Shown here: one piece after another, positions 1,765 to 25,497 of the stretch
How the letters are laid out: the number at the start of each line of letters is the position of its first letter
Numbering within the stretch: position 1 is the first letter of the stretch
From: a virus
Strand: one strand, 5' to 3'
Virus record (IMG/VR): IMGVR_UViG_3300010412_000048
Span: 1 to 33,669 of that record
Length of the DNA stretch: 33,669 bases
Position numbers and translations under genes: made by a program
The notes under the pieces: generated by a model
Told to the model about the DNA's origin: nothing
The model's input: only the letters and a program-made list of their open reading frames with translations
Database searches by the model: none

Positions 1765-3543
1765 CTAGAACCTCCCCATGGCGATGTCAGCCGCCAGCTT
1801 GCAATAGACCGCACTGTGAAGGGCATCATCAGGCTGGTCAATGGGGTGGTCGTACATCATCGTCCGGGTGCGCTCATTGTACTCCACATATTCCGCGAGG
1901 ATATCCTTCGCGAAAGGCTCGAAATGCTCCCACTCCGGAAAGATGAATTTGTTCTGTTTGATGCCCTGGAAGAACTGGGAGAGGACCGCGTTCCGGTTGA
2001 TGATGAACTTGAAGGCGTTAGCGTCCCAACGCTTGCGCTCTCCAAGGTTCGAAGAATAGGCGAACTGCATGACCCCTTCGCGGCCACGGGCCTTGAAGAG
2101 CCTGCTGTTCATTCCCCATCCGTGTCCCCAGTCGGCTCCGATGATCTCCACGTTCCAGTAGGAGCAGAGGTGGAGAACGTCCGGAAGGATGAGCTCGGGG
2201 TCAACCTCCTTCCCGGTGTAGCGTTTCATTAGGAAAGGCCAGAACTCATCGCTGCCGATGTAGCCTCCGATTGTGAGCACGGTCCAGGAGGCGAACTTCT
2301 TCTTGCCGCCGGCGACCTCGCCTTCTTCGCGGCCCTCGCCCCAGTCGATCCCGGCGAAGATTCGCATTCCCGAGTGCCTCGGGGTTCGCTGAAAAGTGAA
2401 GCGCTGGTTGTCTACGCCGCGGACCTGCTTGGTTGGGTAGCAGTTCTGCTGAAGATCCATCCTCGTGACGGGCGAGGACGCGTTGTCGAAGGAGAAGCCG
2501 AGGATCTCGTTGTTGAACTTCGACTCGGGCCATTTCTCGAAGGGTTGATAGATCTCAGCGCGCCATGCCTCGGCCGACTGCTTCCATGGCACCATGAGCT
2601 GAGAGATGTGGTACCCGGTGTAGAACTCGTTCGGCTCGAAGGTGACCCACTGCCCGGCCTGTGCATTGAGTGGCCTCTGACAGTTCGAACAAATCAGTCC
2701 GTCTTTGCCGATGTTTTTCGAGTCAAGGAAGTTCCAATAGCGCGGTGTCTTGCAGTCACATGGAACAAGCCACTCGTTCTGAGTTGACCACTTCCAGTAC
2801 TCCTCGAGGGTGTTCGAGAAAGTGAGGGGGGTGCCGGCCAGGAGCTCCGCACCTTCGACACCTGCGGAAAGTCGCGACGCTGAGAGCGACTGCGAGATGA
2901 CCTTGATGTTGTCCTTGAGGAGATCCTGGGTCTCGTCGAAGAGAACCCTCGAGGCTGGAATACCTCGAGCTCGAGCTGCGGTAAGGAATGCATACCGCAG
3001 GAACATGTAGGAGCCATTGAGCAGCGTCTTCTCGAAGACCTGGTCGGTGATGCCCTTGCCGACGAAGACCCGCTTCAGGAAGGGCGAATCGTAGATCGTG
3101 GGGCGTAGCTTCTCATTGGAGTACTGCCTGGTCTGCAGGGCGGACGGGGAGACGTAGAGGCTTCTCCAGTGTGGCCTGATGACTGATTCGAGAATCTGAA
3201 TGTTGCAAAGGGTCGTGGACTTTGCGACCTGGCGAGAACACTTGAGGACCATGCGCGGGTCGTTCGAGTTGAAGACCGGAAGCATGAAGGCGTGGTTGTC
3301 GAGTCGTAGTGGCTTGCCGAGGTGGTAGAGAATTGCCTGTGCAATGTCACTCTTCCTCCCTGTGAAGGAGGCGCTAGTCGAACCTGGCTTGTGAATCTCT
3401 TTTAGGCGTGGCTGCCAATCGTAGATCTCGTTCCAATCGATCTCTGGAACGAGATTTGGCTGGTCGAATGCCTTGTCGGTGAAGTCGAACGGATCGACAT
3501 CCATCTCATCGAGCTCATCGATTTCTTGCTCGACAACGTCCAC
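1765..3543 (-). CDS. terL: Terminase large subunit (packaging ATPase and nuclease)
   Basis: This is the motor that translocates and cuts phage DNA at the portal. The ATPase half has a Walker A-like loop SRQVAKST (residues 103-110), a Walker B strand ending RVLFDE (199-204) and a motif III-like LAGTPL (235-240). A Cys cluster follows (C262, C264, C285, C288) that looks like a zinc ribbon, as in lambda gpA-type terminases. The RNase H-like nuclease half has Asp in FAGIDWG (D400), IIGADWG (D471) and DQPDDALH (D572/D573), consistent with the metal-binding acidic triad. At 592 aa the length is normal for the family. It starts at GTG 3543, sharing one base with the TAG of the upstream gene, with GAGGAAGAG as ribosome binding site. 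Oddity: the Walker A glycine before Lys is Ala (RQVAKS rather than RQxGKS). Confidence 0.93.
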   Translation of the reverse strand: MDVVEQEIDELDEMDVDPFDFTDKAFDQPNLVPEIDWNEIYDWQPRLKEIHKPGSTSASFTGRKSDIAQAILYHLGKPLRLDNHAFMLPVFNSNDPRMVLKCSRQVAKSTTLCNIQILESVIRPHWRSLYVSPSALQTRQYSNEKLRPTIYDSPFLKRVFVGKGITDQVFEKTLLNGSYMFLRYAFLTAARARGIPASRVLFDETQDLLKDNIKVISQSLSASRLSAGVEGAELLAGTPLTFSNTLEEYWKWSTQNEWLVPCDCKTPRYWNFLDSKNIGKDGLICSNCQRPLNAQAGQWVTFEPNEFYTGYHISQLMVPWKQSAEAWRAEIYQPFEKWPESKFNNEILGFSFDNASSPVTRMDLQQNCYPTKQVRGVDNQRFTFQRTPRHSGMRIFAGIDWGEGREEGEVAGGKKKFASWTVLTIGGYIGSDEFWPFLMKRYTGKEVDPELILPDVLHLCSYWNVEIIGADWGHGWGMNSRLFKARGREGVMQFAYSSNLGERKRWDANAFKFIINRNAVLSQFFQGIKQNKFIFPEWEHFEPFAKDILAEYVEYNERTRTMMYDHPIDQPDDALHSAVYCKLAADIAMGRF

Positions 3544-6653: not shown

Positions 6654-6661
6654 GAGGTCTC

Positions 6662-7114
6662 CTATAGCAGCGGAACGATCGGGTTTGGCGGCGCCAGCAG
6701 CTGCACCTTTACCGATCCGAGTGTAAATCCAGCGATCACGGAGGCCAAGCCCTGTGCTTGCTGGTCTGGGGTTGCGTCGTCTGGCTGCGGACTGCTGACA
6801 CTCCCGGAGGGAATGATTGCAGACACGATCCCTGCCTGCTCTGGGACCGGTAGCCCTGCCCAAAATGTCACAAGGGCCTGAATGAAAAGGGGAGGCCCGC
6901 CGCCAGCGAGCTCGGGGTTGAAGGCGGTCGTGAGTGCGGCCGCGAGAGGGGCTTCCTTGGCGGTTGCGGCTGGAACTCCTCCGATCTTGGCCCAGTCGGT
7001 GTAGGCCTTGGCCCATACCCGAGCCGCCTCCGGAGTGGTTTGCGGAGCCTTCTCGGCATCAAACAGAATCTTGAAGCCGTCGCCGAGCGTCGTGATGTGA
7101 GCTCCGAGTGGCAT
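6662..7114 (-). CDS. Hypothetical structural protein (150 aa), baseplate cluster
   Basis: The gene starts at ATG 7114, sharing one base with the TGA of the spike-like gene (TGATG), and its TAG stop is followed by the ribosome binding site of the 735 aa gene, so all three are likely co-translated. The protein is small, rich in Ala, Pro and Gly, and mostly hydrophobic-neutral. It has a helical N-terminal half (ARVWAKAYTDWAK, residues 31-43) and a strand-rich C-terminus ending PNPIVPLL. No cleavable signal peptide is seen. Context (overlap with a baseplate-spike-like gene) suggests a minor tail or baseplate protein. I know of no catalytic motif in it. Confidence 0.65.
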   Translation of the reverse strand: MPLGAHITTLGDGFKILFDAEKAPQTTPEAARVWAKAYTDWAKIGGVPAATAKEAPLAAALTTAFNPELAGGGPPLFIQALVTFWAGLPVPEQAGIVSAIIPSGSVSSPQPDDATPDQQAQGLASVIAGFTLGSVKVQLLAPPNPIVPLL

Positions 7115-8114: not shown

Positions 8115-8122
8115 GGCATAAG
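8115..8122 (+). promoter_or_regulatory. GGCATAAG motif, copy 1 (candidate phage promoter/operator)
   Basis: The octamer GGCATAAG lies in the 96-nt divergent gap between the spike gene (minus) and ssb (plus), 53 nt before the ssb start. The same octamer occurs at 16843, 17233 and 25360, always on the plus strand ahead of plus-strand genes. No TTGACA-like box is found 15-19 nt upstream, so it is not a normal sigma70 promoter. Role inferred from position and recurrence only. Confidence 0.5.
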
Positions 8123-8175: not shown

Positions 8176-8595
8176 ATGGCAAACGAAGTAGTTTTTACTG
8201 GCTACCTGGGTGCAGATCCAGAGACCAGGACGGTTGGCGATACAACCGTAACCTCCATCCGAATCGCAGACACCGAGAGGTGGAAGGACAAGGACGGCAA
8301 CAAGCAGGAGCGCACGACCTGGTGGAACGTGAACTTCTGGGGCAAAAGCGGAGAGACCATCGCCAAGTTCTTCAAGAAGGGCGATTGGATCTTCACCAAG
8401 TCGAAAATCCAAGTCCGCAAGTGGCAGGACAAGGAGGGGAACGACAGGTGGACTACCGAGGGCAAGGGCACCTACTGGGAGTTTGGCCCGAAGACTTCGG
8501 AGAAGTCTGGCGGCGGCAGCGGAGGTGGCAACGATGGCTACGGGAACTACGAGGATCCTGGACCGGGAAGCAGCGACGACGACATCCCGTTCTAG
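8176..8595 (+). CDS. ssb: Single-stranded DNA-binding protein (SSB, 139 aa)
   Basis: This is a bacterial-type SSB that coats single-stranded DNA during replication and recombination. The OB-fold domain spans about residues 1-105: it opens MANEVVFTGYLGADPETR, close to the classic SSB N-terminus, and includes the WWNVNFWGK strand and the GDWIFTKSKIQVRKW strand. A Gly/Ser-rich linker follows, and the last residues are DDDIPF, the conserved acidic tip that recruits replication and repair proteins. The length (139 aa) is short but normal for phage SSBs. It opens the plus-strand cassette 8176-9634, behind a GGCATAAG motif and a leader hairpin. It interrupts a long run of minus-strand virion genes. 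Confidence 0.95.
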   Translation: MANEVVFTGYLGADPETRTVGDTTVTSIRIADTERWKDKDGNKQERTTWWNVNFWGKSGETIAKFFKKGDWIFTKSKIQVRKWQDKEGNDRWTTEGKGTYWEFGPKTSEKSGGGSGGGNDGYGNYEDPGPGSSDDDIPF

Positions 8596-9118: not shown

Positions 9119-9634
9119 ATGGAGGCAAAAGAGCTAGACCGCAGCAAGCTGTCCCCCGCGCAGCTGAGAGTCCTCGAGGATGTTGAAAAGCGCGTTGCTG
9201 AGGCCAAGAAGATTCTGGACCTACAAACCCCGGAACACATCAAAACCCTCGGCAAAATCCTCAGACGCAGCGTGGAGGACGGAAGCCTGGTTGAGCTCCA
9301 AGCCTTCCTCGAAGAGAACGAAGTTGTAATCCCGCCTGCAGAACTCAAGGCCTTCAGAGATCACCTGATCATTCATCGGGTAGATCTGAAGGACCTTGAG
9401 CCTGCAGCGCGTGAGCGCCTTTTTCTTAGAGCCCACCTTCGAGAGGACTCGAGAAATATGACGCAGGACTACAGAGAGGCCGGGTACCGTGGAAAGCAGC
9501 TTCGCTGCAGAGACTGCAGGTGGTTCATCAGCGCCCCCATGGACGGCGACAACAACGGCGAGAAGTCTTGCGTCGAGCTCGGGACGAAGGGTGCCGATCT
9601 CGCCTGCTACGGATTCACCAAGAAGCCAAACTAG
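9119..9634 (+). CDS. Small helical protein with a C-terminal Cys4 site (171 aa)
   Basis: Residues 1-120 are strongly helical and charged, with a coiled-coil-like opening segment (LRVLEDVEKRVAEAKKIL). The C-terminus carries four cysteines in the order CRDC, then SC, then AC (about residues 129-164), ending ACYGFTKKPN, a likely zinc-binding knuckle. Such small Cys4 phage proteins often bind nucleic acid or a polymerase, but I cannot assign this one. It starts at ATG 9119, eight bases after the previous stop, with no good ribosome binding site. Its stop overlaps by four bases with the stop of the zincin gene on the other strand, the two TAG codons sharing a palindromic CTAG. Confidence 0.7.
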   Translation: MEAKELDRSKLSPAQLRVLEDVEKRVAEAKKILDLQTPEHIKTLGKILRRSVEDGSLVELQAFLEENEVVIPPAELKAFRDHLIIHRVDLKDLEPAARERLFLRAHLREDSRNMTQDYREAGYRGKQLRCRDCRWFISAPMDGDNNGEKSCVELGTKGADLACYGFTKKPN

Positions 9635-10635
9635 GTGCTACGGAACCCGCGCGCCGGGTTGTGCAGAGACTCAAGAAGGTCCCGGTAGTAGGCCTTGTTG
9701 CTTGGAGGCTGAAGCTTCGCGACCTCCTTGCCGTTTGCGGAGAGGCTGCTTGTCGGCTTCGTGGTCTTCGGCTTGGCCGCCGGCGGCCTCATTCGCCAGG
9801 CCGAAGCCGCGCTTGCCCGAAGGATGCGTGGCGTCTGCTCGAGCGCCTCCTTTTCATGGCCGTCCTTGGACCCACGCACGCTCTCCACAACCCTCTTGGT
9901 GACGATAGCCGCAATGATGGGGGCAAGCGCTCTCGTGAGATAGGTCCCGAAGGCCGGCGCCATCGACTTGGCAGTCTCCATGGCTCCAGGGCCGAATTTT
10001 TTACCTCCTGCGATGGCGTGACCGCTCGCACGGGCCTCCTCGAGGAGCATCGGGGCATAGGTGGCCCCCATGAGGGCTGGCGCATTCTCGTAGGCGAACT
10101 GGGAGAGCTCACCAGCGTCCTCCTGGTCGCGGAGAAGGTTCAGGCCGATTGCTGCGCGGAGTAGCTTTCCTGGCCGGCCTCGCGAGAGAGAGTGGCCAAT
10201 GAGAGAGGTGTCTCGAAGACCGCGGCTTCCTAGGATGGGAGAGGCGTGGCCGATCTCGTGAAGGGCACTCGGAACGTGGCTCTTGCCCAGCCTGACAACG
10301 CCCTCATCCCCAATGCCACGGAGGGCGAAGTGGCTTCCTTCTCCAGGCCCGGCGGCCTCGATTGCTGCCGTGACGCCCTTCCTGTCGGCGAACCCTCGGA
10401 TCTTTTGAACCTCATCCGGCGTGAACTCTGCGATCTGCTCGAGAGGAGTTCCCTGGGGAGCCTTGATCGCCAGGTCGGCAGTGGACTTCTCGTACATCTC
10501 GAGCGGGATCCTGCCGTATGGCTCAAGCATCTTTGGCGTGAGGAACAGCGACGCTGCCCCGGCGAGGGCAGGCAGGAAGTTGTCTTCCTCTCTTTTCTCT
10601 CGCGGAGGGATTCCTGGGTATTCGATCTCATCCAT
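9631..10635 (-). CDS. HExxH zincin-like membrane-associated protein, coupled to the RNA polymerase gene (334 aa)
   Basis: The central part has VPSALHEIGHASP (HEIGH at residues 126-130), the zinc-binding and catalytic motif of metallopeptidases. About 70 residues later comes PMLLEEARASGHAI (E199/E200). That spacing and the ExxAS pattern resemble gluzincins of the YugP type, where the Glu is the third zinc ligand. There is a hydrophobic N-terminal patch (LPALAGAASLFLTP) and a probable membrane-active helix (LTRALAPIIAAIVT, about 233-246), then a basic, Pro/Lys-rich tail. The start ATG shares one base with the TGA of the RNA polymerase gene (TGATG), so the two are made together. Possible roles include processing of virion proteins or of the polymerase, or host-envelope action; none is proven. 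Confidence 0.75.
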   Translation of the reverse strand: MDEIEYPGIPPREKREEDNFLPALAGAASLFLTPKMLEPYGRIPLEMYEKSTADLAIKAPQGTPLEQIAEFTPDEVQKIRGFADRKGVTAAIEAAGPGEGSHFALRGIGDEGVVRLGKSHVPSALHEIGHASPILGSRGLRDTSLIGHSLSRGRPGKLLRAAIGLNLLRDQEDAGELSQFAYENAPALMGATYAPMLLEEARASGHAIAGGKKFGPGAMETAKSMAPAFGTYLTRALAPIIAAIVTKRVVESVRGSKDGHEKEALEQTPRILRASAASAWRMRPPAAKPKTTKPTSSLSANGKEVAKLQPPSNKAYYRDLLESLHNPARGFRST

Positions 10636-13600
10636 CAGTACACGCCCTTCTTCTTCGAGAGGCCGGCCGGCTCATCGCCAAACTCCGCGCCATAGGCGAA
10701 GGCTGGGATGGGCGAATATCCGTGGATGTCTGACTCACCGGCGGAACCTGCGCCCTCGATTATGGCATCTTTGAGGTACTGGTAGCCCATCTGGCTCATC
10801 CAGTCGTCTCGCATCAGCGGAGCTCGCTGAATTCCTGAGAGGAAGGGCTGGTGATCGATGGGCTTGGGGCCGACCTCGACCTTGCTGATACCTGCCCTTT
10901 CGAGGATGTTCTTGACCCTCTCGGTGATGACGGTCCCCTTTTTCACGCCAGGCATATCCTCCTGAAGGCGGTGCCCGAGAGCCTCTTCGATCATCTTCTT
11001 GCCGAGCGACTTGTTGTTGAAGTCCTCGACGGCTGTGTAGGGGGCAATGTCTCCGGGGAGGAACCCGCTGTCGCCCGGGTCGAGCACCTTCGTCGTGTTC
11101 CCGACAGCTCTGAGCACCGTTTCGACAGCGCGCCGTTTGATGGGAACGCCTTGCTTCTGGTAGGCGTCCTGCACCTGGCTGGAGATGTACTCCTGGGCGG
11201 GGAGCATTCCCTTGAGATCGGCAAGCTCGTTCGGCTGCGCCAGTCCGGCAGACAGGATGTCGCCCTTCTCGACCGACTTCCCGGTCCTGACCATCGACGG
11301 CTCCCAGAGCTCGTTCGGGATGAAGTGGGTCGTCTTCCCAATCTTCACGTTCTTGCCCGTTCCACCTGGCGCCTCCTTGACGGATTCCACCTTGCCGCTG
11401 ACCTGGGCGAGAGTGGCCTTGCCGCGCTTGATCTTCTGCATCTTGAGAAGCTTGTCGATCTTGTCGTAGCCCGTTGCTACGCCGCGGGCCTGAGACACGC
11501 CGCCGGAATGGAAGGTTCGGAGCGTCATCTGGGTCAAGGGTTCACTGAGAGCCTGCCCGGAGATGGCGCCGATGTTGTCGCCGATCGCAGGAAGCTGCCC
11601 ATTCTCGGTAAGCCCGTAGCACTTTGCACAAGTTCCCTTAGGGAGCTTGCAGGTCAACGGAGACCGCACTTCGACCTTCCCAACGTGTCGCTCTCGCATG
11701 GTGTTGAGGAGCCCAGGGGTGACAGGGTTTCCAGCTCTCGCAATGATGGTTCCGTTGACAGAAACATCCTTTGCCAGAAACCGATCCTCTACATCTGGGC
11801 TGTCGATTCCGATCTCGAGGCCCTTGGATGTTTTGCAGTCGCTGTCGGCAACGACATTGGTGATCGATGCCGCCATGATGTCCTTGTTGAAGGCACCGGG
11901 GACACTGGTCTGGAGTTGCTTTTCGGTTGCAACAGTTCGCGCCCCGTAGAGCGTATTCCAGTAGTCAGAGAACTTGAGGCCCTGGGCGAAAGACCTAGTG
12001 ACAGGGAGAGGGATGGGGTCGCCTTTGTGGTCTGGAACCATGAATGGCGACGAAACGATCTGCTTGAGCTGGGTGATGTTGCCTCTGGCTCCAGAGCGAA
12101 CCATCAGGTCGAAGTTGTTGTCTTGTTCTCCAAGACGCTTCTTCATGGCCTCCTCGAGCTCGCCATTGGCCTTGTCGAGAATCTCTCGCGCTCTCTCGAC
12201 GCCCTTCGGGTCACTGAGTTTCAGCTTTGCGATGCTCTGCTCAGTCTTCTTGAAGATCTTGTCTCGCTCCGGAATGGCCGGGGTTAGATCGTTGATGCCA
12301 ACGGAGAACCCGGTCTTGTAGGTGTGCTCATCGCCCATGGCCTTGAGCTTGTCGATGACCTTTCCGTGCTCGCGAGGCGCCACCTCGGCCATGTCCTTCA
12401 TGAGGTTGCCGAGGTTCTTTTTGTTGAGCTCGACGCCGCGATACTTTTCCTGCAGTGGCTTGGGGAGCTCCTTGATGATGCTCTCGCTCTTCTGAGGATC
12501 CTTGGACATCATGTAGAGACCAAGCGCAGCTTCGTTCTGCGGCTGCGTCATGATGCCACCGGTACCTGGGTTGAACAGGTTGTTGGATGGGAGCATGCGC
12601 TCCGCCTCCTGCACCGCCTCGGTGAGCACGGGTACGTGAACCGTCATTGCGTCACCATCGAAGTCGGCGTTGAACCCCTTCACGACAAGCGGTGGAATCT
12701 TGATTGCCTTGCCATCTGTGAGGCGAGGCTTGAAGGCCATGATGGAGAACTTGTGAAGGGACGGTGCCCGATTGAGTAGGACTGGCCGTTCGGCCATCTC
12801 AGCCTCGAGGGCTGCCTTGGCAACAGGAGTGCGCTTTCGAACTTCCTCGGCTGCCATGAGTGGCGACTTGCCGGCGCTGTTGACGAGCCGCCTTGTGACG
12901 AATGGCTCGAAAAGATTCCACGACATCTCCTCCGGGAGGCCAACCTCGTCCAAGCCGAGCTTTGGCTCAGGAATGATGGTTCCGCGGCCGACAAGGTCCT
13001 GGTTGCGCTTGAGGACCTTCTTGATGAACATGCCCTCTTTCCCCGACTTTGGTGCGCCCGTGATCTGCGTGATAAGGCCCTTTGGAGACCGTTTCTGTGG
13101 GTACCTGAAGATCGGGTCACCAAGACCAGCAACTGCCTTCGTTCCGTTGTAGAGGTCCTCGCGGAGCTCAGCCTTGATCTCGTCGGTGAGATAGGGGACG
13201 GTCTTCTGCCACTCGAGCTCGTTGTTGATGAGGCCTACATCTCGGTAGAGCGTGTTCACGCCGGGGTTCGAGAGCTGTCCGCCCTCGAGCTCAATGACCG
13301 GTCGAAACTGGGGCGGTAGAACCGGAATTTTCGTCTGGATGTACGCATCCTCCGGCCGAAGGTTCAACTTCTTCAGAGCGGAGAGGTACTTCAGGCTCTT
13401 GTTTGCAGCATCCAGCTTTGCAGTTGTCTTTGCCGTCTTCGCTTCGTCGGTCTTCTTTTTGATCTCATCATCGATGTCGATCTGCCTGAGCATCGCCTGG
13501 AGGCCAGCACCTCCGGTGACACCCGACTCTGCCCACTCCCCCGTCTCGGGATCGACAAAGAGCTTCCCTGACGTAAGGCCGTTGTACTGGGCCTGGTTCA

Positions 13601-16600
13601 GTCCCGTCAGAGTGCGGATTGGCTTCTCAAACGCAGGGTTCGGAATTGGCTCTGCCAGCTCGATGTGAGACCACTTGTCGCCCTGGCGGCCACCTGTGAT
13701 GTCGATATCCATGAGCCCACCCTTCTCTTCTCGAAGGTCTTTGCCCCGGACGAAGAGCGGCTCCTTGATCGCGCCGTTTGAGAGCCTGGCAGTGTGCTCG
13801 TCCGTCATGGGACCGAGGACCATCTTGGATCCGCGGCGCTGGACGTTGACGCCAGCCCCCTTCAAGTAGGCTTCGAATTTGTTGTAGGCAAAGGTTGGCA
13901 CCGGCGGCGGCTTCACCATGCCGCTCTTGTGGCCACCCTTTAGCCAGTTCCAGAAGTGGTCGTTCTTCGACGCCTTGTAGGTGGCCATCTCTCGTAGGTT
14001 GGCGCGGCTGCCATGGGAGAGCATCGAGTAGAAGGTGAGAAGGTCGAGTGACTTTGCGCCGTCCTCGCCACCGCGCAGAGGAGACTTGTTCGCGTCGTAC
14101 TTGCCATCAGACCTGGCCGAAAACTGCGAGGTCGCCTGCTTGTTGAGCTTCAGGAAATACTGCGGTCCCACAAGCACTTCCCCCAGTGGGTCCTTGGAGT
14201 GCGGATCGAACAGGAGCTCCTTGTCGGACACCTTCGTCTTTTCGAGCTCCTTCTTGATGGTCTCGACGTAGTCTTCGCCGGAAAAGTTGTCGACCACATA
14301 AGTGGCGTTCAGCTTGTCGGCCATCTTGGCCGCCGCGGTTTCGAGCATCTGGGAGGGGTTGATTCGACTGACAATGCCGTGAGGGTTCAGAAGGATGTCG
14401 ACGTTCTCTCCGTCTCCTGTATGGGGAGCCTCGCCGTCTGGAATGATCTTCGTGATGATGCCTTTGCCGCCGTGCCGGTTTGTGAGCTTGTCGCCGATCT
14501 GCGCTGGCTCTTTCGTCTTGACGTAGACCTTGACCTTCTTCCCGGTCTTGACGACATCGACGACCTCTCCGTCGACGTCATTGGTCCACGACTCCATGTG
14601 GCCTCGCCTAGGCTTTGCGTTCGGCGAGATCTTCCTCATGGCGATATACTCAGGGTCCTGCCTGTTCTCTCTGGTTCCGACCCAGAGCGGGTCGCCCCTC
14701 TTGACGATCTGACCCTTCCGAACGATGCCATCTTTGTCGAGCTTCTTCTGCTGCTCTACATCGAGTCGCCCCGGATCCCAGGCAAGGAAGGCGTCGAGGT
14801 CGTATTCGTCGCCCTTGTCGGGAGAGACCGCATGCTCATGAATGTGCTCACTCGAAAGCTTCTTGGCAGCTGTCTCGGTGATGACAATGCCGTCCTCGAA
14901 GTTGAGGCCCTTGTATGGGACGTAGGCAGCGCGAAGGTTCGTACCAATCGCCAGGGTGCCGTCCCTGGTGAAGTTGGAGTCGGCTATTACCTGCCCCTTC
15001 TTGACCTGGTCGCCCTCTTTGACAGTTGGCTCACCATGGAGAAACGCCTTTTTGTTGAGCTTCAGGTTGTTGAAGATTGGCTGCTCGACCTTCCCGTCCT
15101 TTGTGGCGATGATGATTCTGTTGGGGGTCACCTTCTCAACCACGCCGTCCTCGAGGGCGCGTACCGAAAAGCCCTCTCCGATCCCTTCCTCCATCGTTGA
15201 CCGGCCAGCCTTCACTTGCACAAGCGGCGCTTCTCGCTCAGCGAGAGGAATTGCCTGCTCGAGCATCTTCGTTGCCATTTGGGCACGAACGCCCTGGGCC
15301 GACGGCAGGAATGGGATGGTGTTGGAGGAAATCGAGAAGGCTTGCTTCGGTGACGCTAGGACAGCGTCGATCTTCGAGGCATCGACAATGCCGAGCTCGT
15401 TGTCCTTGAGGAGAGCTTTCACCTTCTCGTCGATGAACTCGCCGTTTTTGTACTGGTCCGGGAACGCCACGTTCAGGCTGCGCATCTCAGACGGAGAGAC
15501 ATAGCGAGACTTCTTGGTCTTCGGGTCGAAGATCCTCGTCATCAGGCTATCGCCCTGACGCTTCACGCCAAGCGGGAGGTTTCCAACCACGCCGATCTTC
15601 CCCGAGTCTGGGGTGTGGATCGGGTCAAGGAAGCCGAGGTGCGATGGATGGACCCCGCGCTCTTCGTCTCGGATCACGTTCTCAGACGAGACGCCGCCCT
15701 CGCCAAGAATCGTGACCTTCGACATTCCGTTGAGGATGTTCAGTGGATTTGTCTGGTCGGTAGTGCTCGCAAGCTGGGACTGAGTGAAGAAGTTTGTCAC
15801 CGCAGGGGTGAACTCGTTCGAGCTCACCAGCTTCGAGATATCCGTTGGCGGGGCCTTGCGATTGTTCAGTCGCCAGTAGACCTTCTTGCGAAACTCGGCC
15901 AGCTTAGGCGCGAGCTCACCGCTCTCTTGCAGCAAGCGCTCGCGGATGAGATCCCTTGTCCCCATGACCTTTTTGAACTCGAGCGCCTGGCGATCGTCGG
16001 GCTTCCGTTCTCCACGGGCAGCCTTGAGGAGCTCGATGGAGCCGCGAAAGACTGCCTCCGGGGAAGCGTTTTCGAACGCCTTCCCGACAGTCTCCTTGGT
16101 GACCTCTGGACGCAGCTCCGTGTCCTCGAGGTAGTCGGCGATGGCCTTTGCTGCGGCATCAGGAGAATCCAGCTTGCTGCCGGTAAGGTACTCGGCCGCC
16201 TTGATGACCGCCGTCTCTTGCTGCTTTTTGGGAACGGCTTTGTTCGCCGCAAGGACGTCTTCGCCCCAGGCTTTCGCCAAAGCCGAGTCGGAAATACCAA
16301 TCCTCGAGAGGATGGGATAGAGGGGGATCGGCGTCTTGTTCTGCCCCCGAATGAATCCGAACGTCGCCTCCTGATCGTTGTATTCGATGTCGAAGGGGCG
16401 GCCCTTGATGTTGATCTCGGTCTTCTTCTCGCCAGTCTTCTTCTCGGTGACGTAGATGCCAGGCTTTCGCCGGAGCTGGTTCTGCACCTGGTAGTGCTTT
16501 CCGTCGACGATGAAGCTTCCGAGGTCGGTGTTCTTGGGAAGCGTCGCAACCTTGATACGCTTTGCCGATGAAAAGACCTTTCCGGTCTTTCGGTCGATGA

Positions 16601-16823
16601 GGTCCAGCGATGCGTAGACCGGGACGCCCCAGGTCTTGTCTTTTCGAACGGCTTCTCTCTGAGATTCCCAGTCCGACGAGTTCTTCGTGTCGTCGATCCA
16701 GACCTTGTTGACCCGGATCTGGCGATTCGTTCCCTTCGCCTGGATGTCCAACGCCTTCGTGAACGCAGCAACGACGTCCTTTTTCAGTCCCTCGAACTGC
16801 GTCCCGTAATCAAGCGTTTCCAT
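10635..16823 (-). CDS. Single-chain multisubunit-type RNA polymerase (beta-beta' fusion, 2062 aa)
   Basis: DNA-directed RNA polymerase with both catalytic barrels in one chain. Beta half (about 1-998): fork/rif region around DQTNPLN (356-362), GLNFEDGIVITE (639-650), and GDKLTNRHGGKG (777-788) with both active-site Lys. It ends with a beta-type C-terminal helix near residue 995. Beta' half (about 1000-2062): WSHIEL (1051-1056), IPVLPPQFRP (1166-1175), RPVLLNRAPSLHKF (1346-1359), catalytic NADFDGD (1385-1391), SGARGN (1577-1582), a zinc site C1663/C1725/C1732/C1735 and trigger helix TLRTFHSGG (1767-1775). The N-terminal beta' zinc ribbon and E. coli-type lineage insertions are missing, which explains part of the shortfall from about 2750 aa for E. 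coli beta plus beta'. ATG 16823 follows AGGTGA at close spacing. No alpha, omega or sigma gene is in the window. Confidence 0.95.
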   Translation of the reverse strand: METLDYGTQFEGLKKDVVAAFTKALDIQAKGTNRQIRVNKVWIDDTKNSSDWESQREAVRKDKTWGVPVYASLDLIDRKTGKVFSSAKRIKVATLPKNTDLGSFIVDGKHYQVQNQLRRKPGIYVTEKKTGEKKTEINIKGRPFDIEYNDQEATFGFIRGQNKTPIPLYPILSRIGISDSALAKAWGEDVLAANKAVPKKQQETAVIKAAEYLTGSKLDSPDAAAKAIADYLEDTELRPEVTKETVGKAFENASPEAVFRGSIELLKAARGERKPDDRQALEFKKVMGTRDLIRERLLQESGELAPKLAEFRKKVYWRLNNRKAPPTDISKLVSSNEFTPAVTNFFTQSQLASTTDQTNPLNILNGMSKVTILGEGGVSSENVIRDEERGVHPSHLGFLDPIHTPDSGKIGVVGNLPLGVKRQGDSLMTRIFDPKTKKSRYVSPSEMRSLNVAFPDQYKNGEFIDEKVKALLKDNELGIVDASKIDAVLASPKQAFSISSNTIPFLPSAQGVRAQMATKMLEQAIPLAEREAPLVQVKAGRSTMEEGIGEGFSVRALEDGVVEKVTPNRIIIATKDGKVEQPIFNNLKLNKKAFLHGEPTVKEGDQVKKGQVIADSNFTRDGTLAIGTNLRAAYVPYKGLNFEDGIVITETAAKKLSSEHIHEHAVSPDKGDEYDLDAFLAWDPGRLDVEQQKKLDKDGIVRKGQIVKRGDPLWVGTRENRQDPEYIAMRKISPNAKPRRGHMESWTNDVDGEVVDVVKTGKKVKVYVKTKEPAQIGDKLTNRHGGKGIITKIIPDGEAPHTGDGENVDILLNPHGIVSRINPSQMLETAAAKMADKLNATYVVDNFSGEDYVETIKKELEKTKVSDKELLFDPHSKDPLGEVLVGPQYFLKLNKQATSQFSARSDGKYDANKSPLRGGEDGAKSLDLLTFYSMLSHGSRANLREMATYKASKNDHFWNWLKGGHKSGMVKPPPVPTFAYNKFEAYLKGAGVNVQRRGSKMVLGPMTDEHTARLSNGAIKEPLFVRGKDLREEKGGLMDIDITGGRQGDKWSHIELAEPIPNPAFEKPIRTLTGLNQAQYNGLTSGKLFVDPETGEWAESGVTGGAGLQAMLRQIDIDDEIKKKTDEAKTAKTTAKLDAANKSLKYLSALKKLNLRPEDAYIQTKIPVLPPQFRPVIELEGGQLSNPGVNTLYRDVGLINNELEWQKTVPYLTDEIKAELREDLYNGTKAVAGLGDPIFRYPQKRSPKGLITQITGAPKSGKEGMFIKKVLKRNQDLVGRGTIIPEPKLGLDEVGLPEEMSWNLFEPFVTRRLVNSAGKSPLMAAEEVRKRTPVAKAALEAEMAERPVLLNRAPSLHKFSIMAFKPRLTDGKAIKIPPLVVKGFNADFDGDAMTVHVPVLTEAVQEAERMLPSNNLFNPGTGGIMTQPQNEAALGLYMMSKDPQKSESIIKELPKPLQEKYRGVELNKKNLGNLMKDMAEVAPREHGKVIDKLKAMGDEHTYKTGFSVGINDLTPAIPERDKIFKKTEQSIAKLKLSDPKGVERAREILDKANGELEEAMKKRLGEQDNNFDLMVRSGARGNITQLKQIVSSPFMVPDHKGDPIPLPVTRSFAQGLKFSDYWNTLYGARTVATEKQLQTSVPGAFNKDIMAASITNVVADSDCKTSKGLEIGIDSPDVEDRFLAKDVSVNGTIIARAGNPVTPGLLNTMRERHVGKVEVRSPLTCKLPKGTCAKCYGLTENGQLPAIGDNIGAISGQALSEPLTQMTLRTFHSGGVSQARGVATGYDKIDKLLKMQKIKRGKATLAQVSGKVESVKEAPGGTGKNVKIGKTTHFIPNELWEPSMVRTGKSVEKGDILSAGLAQPNELADLKGMLPAQEYISSQVQDAYQKQGVPIKRRAVETVLRAVGNTTKVLDPGDSGFLPGDIAPYTAVEDFNNKSLGKKMIEEALGHRLQEDMPGVKKGTVITERVKNILERAGISKVEVGPKPIDHQPFLSGIQRAPLMRDDWMSQMGYQYLKDAIIEGAGSAGESDIHGYSPIPAFAYGAEFGDEPAGLSKKKGVY

Positions 16824-16842: not shown

Positions 16843-16850
16843 GGCATAAG
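16843..16850 (+). promoter_or_regulatory. GGCATAAG motif, copy 2
   Basis: An exact copy of the octamer in the divergent gap between the RNA polymerase gene (minus, start 16823) and the small plus-strand genes. It lies 20 nt from the polymerase start and 128 nt before the ATG at 16979. It could act on the plus strand, like the other copies, or as an operator for the polymerase gene. The rest of 16851-16978 is relatively AT-rich with no convincing gene; a weak CCTC/GAGG hairpin is near 16878-16890. Confidence 0.45.
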
Positions 16851-16978: not shown

Positions 16979-17239
16979 ATGTACATCTATCAAACGCACG
17001 AAACTACACCGACGGCAAGAACCAAGCAGGTTTTGCCGTCACGAACCGTCCCCGTTGCTCAATCTGCTTTCGGGCAAACCGCCAACAATGTTGTCGCTCT
17101 CGGTGGGGCGTTGGTATCGCTCGGAAGCAGGATGATCTTCTGGGCATCGGCGACAGCTCTCTCTCTCGAGCTCCTTCGACGAGGAATCCTCCTCCTCTCT
17201 CCGCGGTCAACCAGGCATACCGAGCCTGCGCAGGCATAA
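16979..17239 (+). CDS. Small membrane protein (86 aa)
   Basis: A short open frame starting MYIYQTHETT. Residues 39-75 are hydrophobic (ALGGALVSLG, then MIFWASATALSLEL), consistent with one or two membrane segments, followed by a basic C-terminus. Its stop codon lies inside the third GGCATAAG motif, 24 nt before the next gene. There is no clear ribosome binding site, so confidence is moderate. The next gene starts with a similar MYFY sequence and also encodes a membrane protein, so the two may be related in role. Overlapping alternative frames here look less coding-like. Confidence 0.45.
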   Translation: MYIYQTHETTPTARTKQVLPSRTVPVAQSAFGQTANNVVALGGALVSLGSRMIFWASATALSLELLRRGILLLSPRSTRHTEPAQA

Positions 17240-17240
17240 G
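17233..17240 (+). promoter_or_regulatory. GGCATAAG motif, copy 3
   Basis: An exact octamer 24 nt before the ATG at 17264. It overlaps the TAA of the 86 aa gene. A partial direct copy (CAGGCATA) lies 19 nt upstream at 17212-17219. Unlike the other copies, this one has no minus-strand gene diverging from it, which favours a plus-strand role. Confidence 0.5.
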
Positions 17241-17263: not shown

Positions 17264-17752
17264 ATGTATTTCTACAGAGAAAAGGACGGTGGCTGGCAGC
17301 CTCAATTCGGGGGTAATGCCAGCCATACGACCACGGTACTGAAGGGCGCAGCCGCGGCAGTGATCACAATCCCTGCACACGGGTTCGTTCTCAACAAAGC
17401 GCAGGTGAACCTCGCAGCATCCGCTCCGGCGACAGCGGCGGCGGCATCTCCTGCGATGGGGTGGCTCAAGACATTCTTCGGGGCATGTGTCTGGGCCGCG
17501 ATGATCGCCGCTGGTAGCCTCGTGTATTCCCATTTCGTGGGGAAATGGCAACAGAAGGGCTATCCCATCCTACCGGTCGCAGCAATGACCGCAGCGGGAG
17601 GGGGTCTGCAGCCCAGTATGCAACCGAGCATCGGCGGGGCCATTCCGCTCGGGGGGAGCACTCTTCATCAACCGGCCCCAAACCAACGACAAGAGCCGAG
17701 CAGAACCAACGCCTCTCGGCAGACGAGTTTTCTCGACGAATTTGAGGGATAG
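17264..17752 (+). CDS. Small membrane protein with a Gly/Pro-rich tail (162 aa)
   Basis: The start ATG 17264 has a perfect ribosome binding site (AAAGGAGGT). The protein opens MYFYREKDGGWQPQFGG, then has an Ala-rich region and one clear membrane helix (WLKTFFGACVWAAMIAAGSL, about residues 67-86). The C-terminal 60 residues are Gly/Pro/Gln-rich and end SFLDEFEG. No enzymatic motif is seen. It converges on the spanin-like gene with a 1-nt gap. It could be a phage membrane or virion internal protein; the function is unknown. Confidence 0.7.
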   Translation: MYFYREKDGGWQPQFGGNASHTTTVLKGAAAAVITIPAHGFVLNKAQVNLAASAPATAAAASPAMGWLKTFFGACVWAAMIAAGSLVYSHFVGKWQQKGYPILPVAAMTAAGGGLQPSMQPSIGGAIPLGGSTLHQPAPNQRQEPSRTNASRQTSFLDEFEG

Positions 17753-17753
17753 G

Positions 17754-18215
17754 TCAGTCGACCGCGTCTCTGATCAGGAATCCAGCGAGCACGGCTGTTG
17801 ATACAGCGGCGGCGGTCCAGGCCAGGGGAGATCCCCACCTGGGCCGCACTCGCTCTTCCTGATATTTTTTATCTAGGTCGATGAGATCCTGCGTGATCTT
17901 GTTGTTCCTCTCGATGAGAAGGGCTTCGTTCGACGTGAGAGCGGCGATCTGTTTCTGAAAGTCGATCTTCTGCTCCTCGAGGATCTCCACCCGCTCCTCG
18001 AGCTTCCCGAGAATGACGTACTGGTGACTGATGAGAGCATCGGCCTTGAGTACTGCGACCCATTCGTCGAGCTCGTAGGCGCAGAGCTCGCGACCATCCT
18101 TGGTCGTGACGAGCTTGCACTCGGGAATGTTCTTTGCCCTGGGCGGCGGCGGGTTAGCGAATGCCGGCGTCCCGCCAAGAACGGATAGAGTCAATAGCGC
18201 GCAAATCAGCCTCAT
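17754..18215 (-). CDS. Spanin-like coiled-coil protein with signal peptide and C-terminal membrane helix (153 aa)
   Basis: The frame is open further upstream, but ATG 18215 is chosen: it follows AGAGGAGA by 7 nt and begins a signal peptide (MRLICALLTLSVLGGTPAFA) with a likely signal peptidase I site after AFA. Then come a Pro patch, a long coiled coil (about residues 60-125, LEERVEILEEQKIDFQKQ) and a C-terminal hydrophobic helix (TAAAVSTAVLAGFLI). It overlaps the preceding coiled-coil membrane gene by 62 nt, an arrangement typical of Rz/Rz1 pairs that fuse inner and outer membranes at lysis. No lipobox Cys follows the signal peptide, so it is not a standard outer-membrane lipoprotein. The spanin call is by context and architecture. 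Confidence 0.6.
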   Translation of the reverse strand: MRLICALLTLSVLGGTPAFANPPPPRAKNIPECKLVTTKDGRELCAYELDEWVAVLKADALISHQYVILGKLEERVEILEEQKIDFQKQIAALTSNEALLIERNNKITQDLIDLDKKYQEERVRPRWGSPLAWTAAAVSTAVLAGFLIRDAVD

Positions 18216-18597
18216 AGCGTTTCTCCTCTGCTCGGATGTCTGCGTCGATGATACGCAGCTTCTCCTCGGCACTGTCGATCCGCTTCTGGGCTTCTTCGAC
18301 TACCTTGTGACCCTCGGCCACCTTCGCGTCGACTTCGGCTTTCTCTTTCAGGATCTTGGCCTTGTTCTTTTCGTGCCGGAGCTTCGCGAGCTCCTTGTTG
18401 CGTCCCCAAGAGATCCATGACCAGAGGGCAATGCCGGCAAGGACGACCGCGATGATGATCAGGGTTCCCACCCATGACTTTCCACCGCCGGTCGCTTTCT
18501 TGTTCTCGGTGACAATGCCCTTGAGCTGGTCAAGGAGCTTGTGGGGGTCGAAGGAGGGTTGCTTTGCCTCCTTCGACTCTTTTCCTGCTTCGGGCAT
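18154..18597 (-). CDS. Inner-membrane spanin-like protein (147 aa)
   Basis: The order of parts matches an i-spanin (Rz type): a short charged cytoplasmic N-terminus, one membrane helix (WVGTLIIIAVVLAGIALWSW, about residues 42-61), then a long charged coiled coil facing the periplasm (residues 65-135, KILKEKAEVDAKVAEGHKV). The start ATG 18597 shares one base with the TAA of the holin-like gene (TAATG). Its 3' end overlaps the next coiled-coil gene. In lysis such proteins connect to an outer-membrane partner. An unrelated membrane-anchored coiled-coil virion protein cannot be excluded. Confidence 0.6.
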   Translation of the reverse strand: MPEAGKESKEAKQPSFDPHKLLDQLKGIVTENKKATGGGKSWVGTLIIIAVVLAGIALWSWISWGRNKELAKLRHEKNKAKILKEKAEVDAKVAEGHKVVEEAQKRIDSAEEKLRIIDADIRAEEKRYEADLRAIDSIRSWRDAGIR

Positions 18598-19271
18598 TAG
18601 GCCTCGGAGGGAGCTTCCACGTCCATGGGAAGGGGATCCGAGGGGTCCTTGCGGCGCTCGAACAAGTGGGCTTCGATCAGGCCCTCGAGCTTCTCGCGTC
18701 CGATGTCGGGCAGGCCGGCAGCCTTTCCAACCTCGATTGCCCAGTTCACACCAACCTCGAGGATCTCCGGACCAGGGATGGCCTTGCCCTCAGTGGCACT
18801 CTTCAGCTTGTTGCGCGCCCATTCGCCGGCGCGGTTAGCCGCCTTGCCTGCGATCTTGGCCCACGCATCGAGCTGCTTGTCGCCAATGTCGATCTTGAAC
18901 TTCTTACGGAGCCACGCGAGCAAAAGTCCGGCGAGTCCGGTAGCGAGCGTCCCAAGGATGGGAAGTAAGATCGCCATGACTTCGTCACTGAGCTTCTGGA
19001 GCGCTGTTCCGCCTGCAGCAGGAGCTGGTTCAGCGGCGGGGGCTTCTGCCTTGGGTTCTTCCGGCGCTGGCGCAGGGGCGGGATCGGCGGCTGGCTCTGG
19101 CGCAGGAGCGGGATCCGCGGCCGGTTCGGCAGGGGCCGCAATCCCAGCATCGCTTTGGGCAAGTGCCAGGTGAGGCGTGGTGATGATGCCGAGCGCGCAA
19201 ACGAGCGCCAGGGCACTAACCAGCCGAGCGCTCGCCTGACCAATCTTTTTTAGCTTCTTGAAGTTCTTCAT
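18597..19271 (-). CDS. Holin-like membrane protein with Pro/Ala-rich linker (224 aa)
   Basis: The frame extends to 19322, but ATG 19271 (MKNFKKLKKIGQ) is supported by AAAGGAGA at 7 nt. The N-terminus is a signal peptide or membrane helix (LVSALALVCALGIITTP). It is followed by a low-complexity Pro/Ala linker of about 45 residues (repeated PAPEPAADPA-type units) and a second membrane helix (MAILLPILGTLATGLAGLLL). The C-terminal part is amphipathic and helical. The last half resembles holins of the LLH superfamily in layout. It precedes two spanin-like genes, forming a plausible lysis cassette, though no endolysin gene is adjacent. It overlaps the 115 aa gene by 56 nt. Confidence 0.55.
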   Translation of the reverse strand: MKNFKKLKKIGQASARLVSALALVCALGIITTPHLALAQSDAGIAAPAEPAADPAPAPEPAADPAPAPAPEEPKAEAPAAEPAPAAGGTALQKLSDEVMAILLPILGTLATGLAGLLLAWLRKKFKIDIGDKQLDAWAKIAGKAANRAGEWARNKLKSATEGKAIPGPEILEVGVNWAIEVGKAAGLPDIGREKLEGLIEAHLFERRKDPSDPLPMDVEAPSEA

Positions 19272-19563
19272 CGCTGTCTCCTTTGGTGCGTTGGGGTTCC
19301 TTAGCCCAGTAGTGAACCACAAGTACGATTTCTTCGCTGGTGGTCACGACCTGGTCTTGGCCCGAACCTTCCCGGGTTGTCGTCTTCCGCGAGTATTCTC
19401 GCATCATTTCGATCTTGATGCCGTTGGAGGCATCATTGGCCCGGTTTCGGAGATCAGCGTAGCGCTCAAGGTCCTCGTCCTCGAACATGCTGAACTTCTC
19501 GGCGTGGAACACGCCATGGTCGCTGTTGCCAAAGGAGGCCCTGATCGGAGTTGCGGATGCCAT
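19216..19563 (-). CDS. Small hypothetical protein after portal (115 aa)
   Basis: The start ATG shares one base with the TGA of the portal gene (TGATG), and the 3' end overlaps the holin-like gene by 56 nt. The protein is soluble, charged and mixed alpha/beta: a helical middle (FEDEDLERYADLRNRANDA, residues 27-45), then a strand pair with many Thr/Val (EEIVLVVHYWAKEP), and an acidic/basic tail. I do not recognise it. Its position suggests a head-related or regulatory protein co-translated with portal. Confidence 0.65.
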   Translation of the reverse strand: MASATPIRASFGNSDHGVFHAEKFSMFEDEDLERYADLRNRANDASNGIKIEMMREYSRKTTTREGSGQDQVVTTSEEIVLVVHYWAKEPQRTKGDSDEELQEAKKDWSGERSAG

Positions 19564-21611
19564 CAGACGACTCCTCCTTCACGCCGCGGCGGCGCCGCCT
19601 GCGGAAGTGGCTTCATGCGCTCGGCAGCCTCGCCGGCTGTACCGCCGGGGCCCATCTGCATGAGTAGCTGCTCGACGATTCGGGCCATGTTCGGCATCTT
19701 CTGCCGTAGCTCGTTGAGTACCTGGCCCTGCTGGTCGGGCGAGAGCTGTGCGATCCGGTTGGCCCACTGCTTGGCGACCCTCGAGGCGTCGAGCTCGAGG
19801 ACCTGGCCTCCCGCGGGGGCCCCGGCCTGCTCACCGGCCTGTCCGGCGGCCTGCCCCTCCACGGCCCCGGCTTCCTGCTGAGCTGCCTGCTGGGCCATCT
19901 GCTGGTCCTGGGCGAGCTCGCTGGATGAGGCCGCCTGCTGTGGCTGCTGGGCCTGCTGTGGCTGCTCCTGGCCCTCCTGGGGCGGCTGGCCTTCTTGAGG
20001 AGGTGCCTGTCCCTCCTGGCCCTGAGTGGCCTGCCCCTGGGCCTGCTCCTCCTGGCCTGGCTGGCCGCCGGAGGACTGCCCCATGGCTTCGTTCATGGCC
20101 TCCTGGGCCCTGGCCTGGTACTTGGCCTGGATGATCTGAGCCTCGCCCTGGGCCTCCGTCTGGGCCTTCATTGTGATGGCCTGAATCCGGTTCCTTGCCT
20201 CCGACTCCTTCTCGATCATGGCCTGCTCGTCGTCGTAGTCGAAGCCGAGCTCGGTGAGCATGGTGTGGTCGGAGATCTTGTTCGCCGCGTTGAGCTGGAT
20301 GACGATCTGCTTGCGCTGGATGTCGTCCGCCATCTTGAACTCGGTGAAGCCGATGTCCACGTCTGGAAGCGAGAGGTAGAGCCTGATCCGGTTCTTTGCC
20401 CAGTTGACGAACCTGAGCAGGAGCCTTCGGTAGAGAAGGAAGTGGTTCTCAAGAGTCCTCAGGGACACGCTCGAGCCTGACCACGACAGGCCGCCGAAAA
20501 CGAATTCGATGGGGACGCCCATGCCACCCGTGATCTCTTTGTTCGTGACTTCGATCTCGGGTCCTAGCAAGAGAGCTCGGCCGTCGCCCCCCAATCTCTC
20601 GAAACCAAGAGGCACCGACACGACCGAGATGTAGTTGGGGTCGATGCGCCATTTGCGGATTTCTGTCTGCACTGTCCCCTGCCAGCTCGAGAGATTGACG
20701 TGCTGGTAGGGGTCTTGCTGTGCGTTCGCCTGCGGGAAGATGAACTCAAGCGGCATGATGCGCTGCAGGGCAATTGCCTCCTGAGCGCGACGAAGAACGT
20801 AGAGGTAGAACATGCGCCCCATCGAGTGAATGATGAGCGGCTTGCCCCAACCCATGTCCTGCTCTGCAAGAGTTGGGCGTTTGAAGTGGAAGATGTTCTG
20901 GTCGGAGAGGGCGATATCGCGCCTCTTCTTCATCGCATTGAGAAAGACCTCCGGGATGTCGACGAGGATTTCTCGGATTCCCTGCTGGATGGCCTTTTGG
21001 ATCTTGTTCGGAATACGGTAGCGATACTTCGACCGGCCCGTGATGGGGTTGTAGTGGATGTCGATGTTCTTCGGATCCCATCGGACGAAGTTGATGCCTG
21101 TGCGGTCTCGCACTGGCCTGTCGACAATCTTGCCAACCGTCTGGGCGCTACATCCCTTGCAGCGCATGTGGAACTCGTAGTTCTTGAACTGGTATTCGAA
21201 CTCCGGGTCCGACAGCTTGTGCATCTGGTTGCACCCTTTGTGAGGGCACTGAATCCAGCGAATGAACGGAAGATTGATGGAGATGAATGCGTTGCCGTAG
21301 CAAAAGTAGTCTAGGCCGATCTCGATGAGGAACGGCTTCATGTTGAGCGTGTCCTCGAGGATCTCCTGCCACCCATCGCGGACATGCTTTTGGTCGGCGT
21401 TGTAGACGAAGTTCGTGACCGGATACTCGGCAATCTTCGTCACAACGGAGCCGATCATCGGGTCCTTGTAGAAGAAGTACTGGCACCACCGGAAGAGCTC
21501 CTTCACGGTGGGCGGCATGTAGGTCTGAGCAATGTCGAAGAAGGGCGACGGATAGACCGTTCCCCTTCGTCTGTCTCGACCTCCCAGGCCGCTGAGTTCT
21601 TCGCCTGCCAT
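19563..21611 (-). CDS. Portal protein with a zinc-ribbon-like insertion and Gln-rich tail (682 aa)
   Basis: The portal forms the dodecameric ring through which DNA enters and leaves the head. Recognisable portal features are the N-terminal helix pair (DPMIGSVVTKIAEYP, 50-64), the DYFCYGNAFISI strand (101-112) and the long central helices near residues 250-300. Unusual is a Cys cluster, C122, C127, C151 and C154, that looks like a zinc ribbon inserted in the wing. From about residue 500 to 600 there is a low-complexity Gln/Gly/Pro/Ala tract, then a helical C-terminus ending EGGVV. The gene starts at ATG 21611, 20 nt after the upstream stop. No other gene here fits the portal role. Portal and TerL are about 16 kb apart, which is not the usual adjacency. 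Confidence 0.85.
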   Translation of the reverse strand: MAGEELSGLGGRDRRRGTVYPSPFFDIAQTYMPPTVKELFRWCQYFFYKDPMIGSVVTKIAEYPVTNFVYNADQKHVRDGWQEILEDTLNMKPFLIEIGLDYFCYGNAFISINLPFIRWIQCPHKGCNQMHKLSDPEFEYQFKNYEFHMRCKGCSAQTVGKIVDRPVRDRTGINFVRWDPKNIDIHYNPITGRSKYRYRIPNKIQKAIQQGIREILVDIPEVFLNAMKKRRDIALSDQNIFHFKRPTLAEQDMGWGKPLIIHSMGRMFYLYVLRRAQEAIALQRIMPLEFIFPQANAQQDPYQHVNLSSWQGTVQTEIRKWRIDPNYISVVSVPLGFERLGGDGRALLLGPEIEVTNKEITGGMGVPIEFVFGGLSWSGSSVSLRTLENHFLLYRRLLLRFVNWAKNRIRLYLSLPDVDIGFTEFKMADDIQRKQIVIQLNAANKISDHTMLTELGFDYDDEQAMIEKESEARNRIQAITMKAQTEAQGEAQIIQAKYQARAQEAMNEAMGQSSGGQPGQEEQAQGQATQGQEGQAPPQEGQPPQEGQEQPQQAQQPQQAASSSELAQDQQMAQQAAQQEAGAVEGQAAGQAGEQAGAPAGGQVLELDASRVAKQWANRIAQLSPDQQGQVLNELRQKMPNMARIVEQLLMQMGPGGTAGEAAERMKPLPQAAPPRREGGVV

Positions 21612-25359: not shown

Positions 25360-25367
25360 GGCATAAG
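25360..25367 (+). promoter_or_regulatory. GGCATAAG motif, copy 4
   Basis: An exact octamer in the divergent gap between the 381 aa gene (minus) and the plus-strand genes at 25372 and 25494. It is 127 nt before the longer gene and only 5 nt before the small frame at 25372; if it is a promoter, that small frame would be leaderless. Confidence 0.45.
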
Positions 25368-25371
25368 GTTT

Positions 25372-25497
25372 ATGAAGGCAGAGCGCAGCTTTCATTTCAA
25401 TAGCTCAAAGCGTGGCAACGGTGCGGCCATGTCTGAGAGCCACCCAACAAACCAGCCCAATAGGGCACCCATGCACCAGATTGTGGATCCACCATGA
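25372..25497 (+). CDS. Possible small leader ORF (41 aa)
   Basis: ATG 25372 opens a short frame (MKAERSFHFNSSKRGNG...) that ends with TGA in a 4-nt ATGA overlap with the next gene. This geometry fits translational coupling, and the next gene has only a weak ribosome binding site of its own. The frame has AAGG three bases before its start, which is too close for good initiation. It may be a true small gene, a leader, or chance. Confidence 0.3.
   Translation: MKAERSFHFNSSKRGNGAAMSESHPTNQPNRAPMHQIVDPP

Follow-up and report, generated by a model that had tools for sequence, protein, structure and literature searches.

The stretch of viral DNA analyzed here (an IMG/VR virus record of 33,669 nucleotides, hereafter the window) encodes the beta and beta' parts of a bacterial-type RNA polymerase (RNAP) as one chain, on the strand that carries the portal and terminase genes. 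We propose that this single-chain catalytic core is likely carried in the virion and directed by a sigma factor to the early genes. The particle evidence comes from a cultured relative, Salmonella phage Arash, and the activity is a prediction.

Gene layout around the RNA polymerase

The main genes of the window are:

1765..3543, minus strand: terminase large subunit (phrog_675, 2.6e-51; PF05876; homolog of Arash gp1)
8176..8595, plus strand: single-strand DNA-binding protein (SSB; phrog_44, 1.6e-33), the first gene behind a promoter-like motif and on the strand opposite to RNAP
9631..10635, minus strand: ORF of 334 aa, function not assigned, downstream of RNAP and overlapping its stop codon (TGATG); conserved in the close subclade
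10635..16823, minus strand: single-chain beta-beta' RNA polymerase, 2062 aa (ORF, Pfam domains, alignment, AlphaFold models of the halves)
19563..21611, minus strand: portal protein, upstream of RNAP on the same strand (phrog_16240; 55 related loci; homologous to Arash gp204)

The RNAP gene runs without interruption from an ATG start to a TGA stop, and the plus strand of the same interval is full of stops; the intact frame of 2062 residues that had been read from the sequence alone is therefore real, but its strand had to be corrected to minus. Along the protein the Pfam domains follow in the order Rpb2_2, Rpb2_3 and Rpb2_6, then Rpb1_1, Rpb1_2, Rpb1_3, Rpb1_4 and Rpb1_5, not all of which reach the curated cut-off. 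Beta makes up residues 1 to about 1000 and beta' about 1001–2062. There is no linker, and the end of beta and the start of beta', read from the alignments, both fall within approximately residues 985–1005.

A second, larger IMG/VR contig of the same phage (G001, 69,439 bp) spans the window in full at 99.8–99.99% identity, and the full-length RNAP frame recurs in more than 40 other contigs, with relatives down to about 35% identity. Since two overlapping assemblies agree and the frame is full length in relatives, a misassembly joining two genes was rejected, and the fusion passed the check for a frameshift or assembly artefact that the sequence-only reading had proposed.

That reading had placed the gene among portal, spike and terminase genes; the portal and the terminase large subunit stand, while the spike found no support. 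Among homologs of Arash virion genes, portal and terminase lie in the window, and capsid, hub, sigma and baseplate lie outside it. Most virion-strand neighbors of RNAP gave no Pfam or PHROG match. They include a virion-strand protein of 1805 aa (28230–33647) and one of 856 aa (4446–7016), the latter conserved in 41 related loci. ORFs with a weak resemblance to spanins and holins lie between the portal and RNAP (18154–19322). Neither the Rfam nor the tRNA scan gave a hit in the window.

Anatomy of the enzyme

The sites within the RNAP gene to which we refer are:

11499..11528, minus strand: trigger loop MTLRTFHSGG, residues 1766–1775, with R1769 and H1772 (sequence, alignment)
12651..12671, minus strand: catalytic Asp triad NADFDGD, residues 1385–1391, the three Asp invariant in 85/85 rows
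13671..13691, minus strand: site of the missing beta' zinc ribbon, residues 1045–1051 (61/61 versus 24/24 rows)
14463..14489, minus strand: catalytic beta lysines K779 and K787 (GDK-LTNRHGGK-G), invariant in 85/85 rows
14535..14549, minus strand: position at which the flap tip is lacking, residues about 759–763; compared with bacterial beta, about 12 aa are missing (alignment; gap in the HMM alignment)

All of the catalytic motifs that had been picked out beforehand, namely NADFDGD, both beta lysines and the trigger-helix Arg and His, were located in the protein. In an alignment of 85 enzymes (61 phage and 24 bacterial rows) the three aspartates and two lysines show no variation at all. The DxDGD triad and the two lysines reside in two double-psi beta-barrel domains, which makes this a two-barrel (multisubunit-type) RNAP.

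Two elements of the bacterial enzyme are missing. The N-terminal zinc ribbon of beta' has no cysteine in any of the 61 phage rows, compared with at least four in 24/24 bacterial rows, and the region is shortened to about 17 aa versus 49 in bacteria. The flap-tip region measures 28–34 aa in 61/61 phage rows versus at least 41 aa in 24/24 bacterial ones. HMM alignments to solved structures revealed the same losses. The clamp-helix region is kept. In bacteria the clamp helices bind sigma region 2 and the flap tip docks sigma region 4; with the flap tip absent, any sigma must bind this RNAP in another way. The suggestion that the enzyme might be minimal thus holds for the zinc ribbon and the flap tip, but not for the remainder, which is near full size.

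The two halves were modelled with AlphaFold from phage alignments of 30 rows (mean pLDDT 82.9 and 84.9). The beta half matched bacterial beta in the PDB (E 9e-73, TMq 0.72) and the beta' half bacterial beta' (E 4e-63, TMq 0.79), both over nearly the full length, with approximately 20–26% identity to the solved chains. The search for alpha that had been recommended was carried out with PF01193 and PF01000: no homolog was found in the window's phage or in any other phage record searched, fused or split, most of these records being fragments; the controls were positive.

Fused and split relatives

A profile search of viral contigs returned at least 321 RNAP relatives, 80 of which were kept. At least 45 of these IMG/VR relatives have a single ORF, either the whole enzyme or one running into the contig end; 34 are split, and one has a partial fused ORF. 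The same single frame occurs at 64–68% identity in another four contigs, of which two are nearly identical. The enzyme had been thought to represent a distinct, unsplit lineage, and distinct it is; it is not unique, being one of at least 45 single-ORF relatives, some of which probably fall within the published mReC set (PMC7481178). The split always occurs at about residue 1440–1457 (numbering of the window protein), downstream of DFDGD and the beta' catalytic domain, and beta is still fused to the N-terminal half of beta' in the split forms. Cultured members of the group are Arash (gp206 and gp216) and Vibrio phages D69, D181 and D148. The best 80 matches in the genome collection were ordinary cellular rpoB and rpoC genes of only 25–32% identity, hence there is no close host copy among them.

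Several features of the relatives deserve mention. Fused ORFs of 2391–3010 aa in four loci (L064, L067, L071 and L078) contain intein-like inserts, which sit at HTPE of beta, next to the catalytic lysines, immediately behind DFDGD and within the trigger loop; those of L067 and L078 were confirmed to have LAGLIDADG domains. In Vibrio phage D181 (L195, 2884–8398) an annotated homing endonuclease interrupts the beta ORF, probably as part of a mobile intron. At the position of F1771, lysine replaces the trigger-helix Phe in all 23 split-type enzymes, and at that of R1769 arginine is found in 0/23 split types, while the fused types have Arg in 13/38 and Lys in 16/38. The matches in some phage-labelled records, for example OR846602, OR844998, OR847295 and CAKLQH020000005, resemble host rpoBC operons and suggest contamination.

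Phylogeny

In a concatenated FastTree phylogeny of the 61 phage and 24 bacterial rows, the phages were fully separated from the bacteria and the split forms made up one clade; the fused forms need two changes. A beta' tree computed under a mixture model with a eukaryotic-virus outgroup joined all phage RNAPs in one clade (support 98) and the fused and split forms in another within it (support 100). Outside the latter fell those phages in which beta' has a gene of its own (Rhizobium RHph, Vibrio Va2, Vibrio 1.031.O and Yersinia GN1). Since fused and split forms are one clade with the separate-beta' phages outside, the beta-beta' junction would most simply have arisen once, at the base of this group. 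As to whether fused or split was the first state within it, the two trees differ.

The phage RNAP clade lies outside the sampled bacterial phyla. An origin inside one host phylum was not seen in the trees, leaving a grouping with Patescibacteria that is not rejected (p-AU 0.37); for this reason a position outside all bacteria is not claimed. The trees, and the lack of a close cellular copy, bear out the view that this is a phage-encoded, bacterial-like enzyme with a lineage of its own and not a member of a single host clade.

A diverged sigma factor

The standard sigma profiles PF04542 and PF04545 gave no match in the contigs of the window's phage. Arash gp10 led to a diverged sigma in the same phage, at G001:24682–25578 on the RNAP strand (blastp 1e-15). 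The gene adjoins a baseplate-hub-like gene ahead of the baseplate genes, an arrangement also seen in Arash. Its matches to TIGR02997 (2.8e-9) and phrog_351 (1.2e-6) are weak, far below the NCBIfam curated cut-offs, but consistent, and on this basis we regard it as a diverged member of the sigma70 family.

A three-row profile detected gp10-type sigmas in 19/26 RNAP-bearing records, and in 17 of the 19 such records of at least 100 kb. Among 50,697 phage records gp10 matched only Arash, D69, D181 and D148, the cultured carriers of this RNAP. Sigma distances track RNAP distances (Mantel r 0.937, p 1e-4, n 17), for which vertical descent alone could suffice. The sigma search called for by the sequence-only reading has thus yielded a diverged sigma, encoded by the same phage, that co-occurs and co-varies with the RNAP, and the enzyme is not sigma-free.

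Other sigma-like genes were observed. Three close relatives encode a small protein that combines a sigma region 4-like HTH with a Cys-rich stretch (G002:51023–51472, G007:44692–45153 and G016:3620–4051), which is absent from G001; G007 has a gp10-type sigma as well. A second, more ordinary sigma70-like gene occurs in several relatives and in Arash and D69 (L187, L188, L189, L190, L010 and L011); gp196 of Arash is missing from the proteins listed for its virion.

A promoter-like motif on the opposite strand

The 8-mer GGCATAAG is enriched in the intergenic DNA of six close records, with 47 sites versus about 7 in shuffles. In these close relatives, whose sites are not independent, all copies are on the strand opposite to RNAP and the virion genes. 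The motif is followed, 13–16 bases from its start, by T-R-A/G-A and often by a ribosome site and a start codon. In the window it precedes all three plus-strand gene clusters, one of which begins with the SSB gene. The copies located by motif search are:

8115..8122, plus strand: ahead of the SSB gene cluster
16843..16850, plus strand: close upstream of the RNAP start and directed away from RNAP
17233..17240, plus strand: 23 bp ahead of the plus-strand gene 17264–17752
25360..25367, plus strand: ahead of the plus-strand ORF 25494–25919

In Arash an unbiased count gave GGTATAAG as the top intergenic 8-mer; of its 31 copies, 30 lie on the strand opposite to RNAP, and T-R-n-A recurs at +13 to +16. 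The promoter-like motif GGYATAAG-N5-T-R-n-A is thus common to Arash and the window clade. Across 25 records, GGYATAAG was found 206 times on the opposite strand versus 50 times on that of RNAP, the reversed-pattern control giving 73 versus 74; certain subclades (G010, G011, G017–G019, G021 and G025), as well as Rhizobium phage RHph, have a weak excess or none. A search for a separate promoter motif on the late strand found none.

Virion proteome of phage Arash

Published mass spectrometry of Arash particles includes both the polymerase and the sigma. The RNAP homolog gp206 was the most-detected protein, with 3516 spectra and 128 unique peptides (PMC10585845), and gp216, the C-terminal half of beta', was represented by 40 peptides, the sigma gp10 by 24 and the helicase gp217 by 38 (PMC10585845). 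Expressed as spectra per residue, gp206, gp216, gp217 and gp10 gave 2.0–2.4, compared with 1.5 for the portal and 4.3 for the capsid. These counts are noisy, one protein having 932 spectra from only two unique peptides. Since the sample contained 116 proteins, carry-over from the lysate is possible, as its authors allow (PMC10585845).

A virion location had been missed in the sequence-only reading. By analogy with Arash the window enzyme is probably also carried in the virion, although the Arash enzyme is the split form and only about 34% identical to that of the window, which speaks against extending the packaged holoenzyme to this phage.

Proposed mechanism and alternatives

We envisage that one polypeptide would provide the whole beta and beta' crab claw, including the two-barrel active site, bridge, trigger loop and clamp. 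With the entire claw supplied by a single chain, the alpha platform for joining the halves would not be needed, and the enzyme may be independent of alpha. The RNAP would be made late, from the virion gene strand beside the portal gene, and packaged with the phage-specific, highly diverged sigma, whose gene is part of the tail/baseplate module. Once ejected into the next cell, the holoenzyme would recognize GGYATAAG-N5-T-R-n-A promoters, situated mainly on the opposite strand ahead of early and replication genes such as SSB, and the early genes would be transcribed without the host enzyme. Whether the whole lineage possesses such a self-sufficient particle system, consisting of an alpha-free one-chain RNAP, a sigma and its own early-strand promoters, with the fusion ancestral and re-split once in the Arash branch, is a question on which we are evenly divided.

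The RNAP might be a non-virion enzyme, made in the infected cell for the late virion-strand genes as in phiKZ-like phages, with GGYATAAG being read by host RNAP. The RNAP gene is itself on the late strand, and the late genes, with no distinct motif found on their strand, lack another obvious reader. Furthermore, TGGTATAAG resembles the extended -10 box of host sigma70 promoters, as does the Arash form of the motif, so host RNAP could use the sites. However, the motif is common to phages that differ in base composition and probably in host, which argues for a shared phage enzyme as its reader; the Arash homolog is the most-detected virion protein and is found there with its sigma; and an enzyme first made together with the late genes cannot easily start those genes. 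We therefore consider this reading unlikely. A hybrid enzyme, in which the phage chain depends on alpha, omega and/or sigma taken from the host, would agree with the bacterial fold over nearly the full length and with the retention of the clamp helices, to which sigma region 2 binds in bacteria. We give little credence to such a hybrid, given that a dedicated phage sigma exists, that a fused chain could in principle do without the alpha platform and that identity to the solved bacterial chains is so low.

A host rpoBC operon, a horizontally captured fragment or a misassembly, each without phage function, is refuted by the data. Phage-labelled records resembling contaminating host rpoBC do exist, and Helicobacter has a fused rpoBC; but portal and terminase genes flank RNAP in dozens of contigs, the second assembly agrees with the first and no close cellular copy occurs among the best genome-contig matches, on which grounds host contamination was rejected. 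In addition, the phage clades have support of 98–100 and the catalytic residues are kept over deep divergence. A virion-carried, sigma-directed enzyme for early transcription remains the reading that we prefer.

Comparison with known polymerases

The mReC enzymes (PMC7481178), to which the window RNAP is related, are similar in being bacterial-type phage beta and beta' in a deep clade apart from cellular RNAPs, and belong to tailed phages, some of more than 200 kb. Our trees likewise place the phages separate from cellular RNAPs and near bacteria, and metagenome 3300017989, named in connection with mReC, also yields a fused member of the present set (L051). The mReC paper describes beta and beta' as subunits; no single-chain form, virion location, sigma or promoter is mentioned in the main text (PMC7481178). 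None of 18 fused or split records, many of them incomplete, has the mReC capsid marker PF07068, which is present in Rhizobium phage RHph, whose beta' gene is separate. For the terminase, with the comparison confined to the window, the mReC family PF03237 was not reported in the scan that gave PF05876.

Arash, D69, D181 and D148 share with the window phage the RNAP clade (about 34% identity), the fusion of beta to the N-terminal half of beta' and the sigma family; in Arash the portal gene is two genes upstream of RNAP and a promoter-like motif is present as in the window clade. They differ in the split of beta' after the catalytic domain, and their RNAP is annotated only as 'subunit beta' or hypothetical. 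The trigger helix of Arash reads GTKH versus RTFH in the window enzyme.

Single-chain phage RNAPs with beta-like and beta'-like parts are already known from crAss-like phages, whose mode of action the window enzyme would share: phi14:2 gp66 has both barrels in one chain, is packaged in the virion and carries out rifampicin-resistant early transcription (PMC10136315). These enzymes are very diverged and undetectable with beta and beta' profiles (PMC7481178), which the window protein matches strongly; in the 60 of 68 rows of phage matches listed for the window protein at E<=1e-5, none bears the name of a crAss-like phage. The RNAPs of phiKZ/AR9-type jumbo phages are also of the multisubunit type, lack alpha and omega and occur in virion and non-virion forms, but they are strongly diverged, encoded by four or five genes and have no recognizable sigma (PMC7598289). 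The rpoBC proteins of Helicobacter and Wolbachia (NF007172, NF011417) are one-chain beta and beta' as well, but cellular; in the concatenated tree Helicobacter branches within Campylobacterota, and the window protein scores 528.6 against NF007172 versus a cut-off of 5372.

Significance

If the proposal is true, this phage would possess a single-gene, near-bacterial RNAP core that dispenses with the alpha assembly platform, and would ship a sigma-directed holoenzyme instead of a bare polymerase. The roles of alpha, the beta' zinc ribbon and the flap tip could be addressed with one expressed protein, with Arash as a cultured test system. The mReC RNAPs known from metagenomes, the puzzling set of proteins in Arash virions and unannotated phage sigma genes would then be parts of one system.
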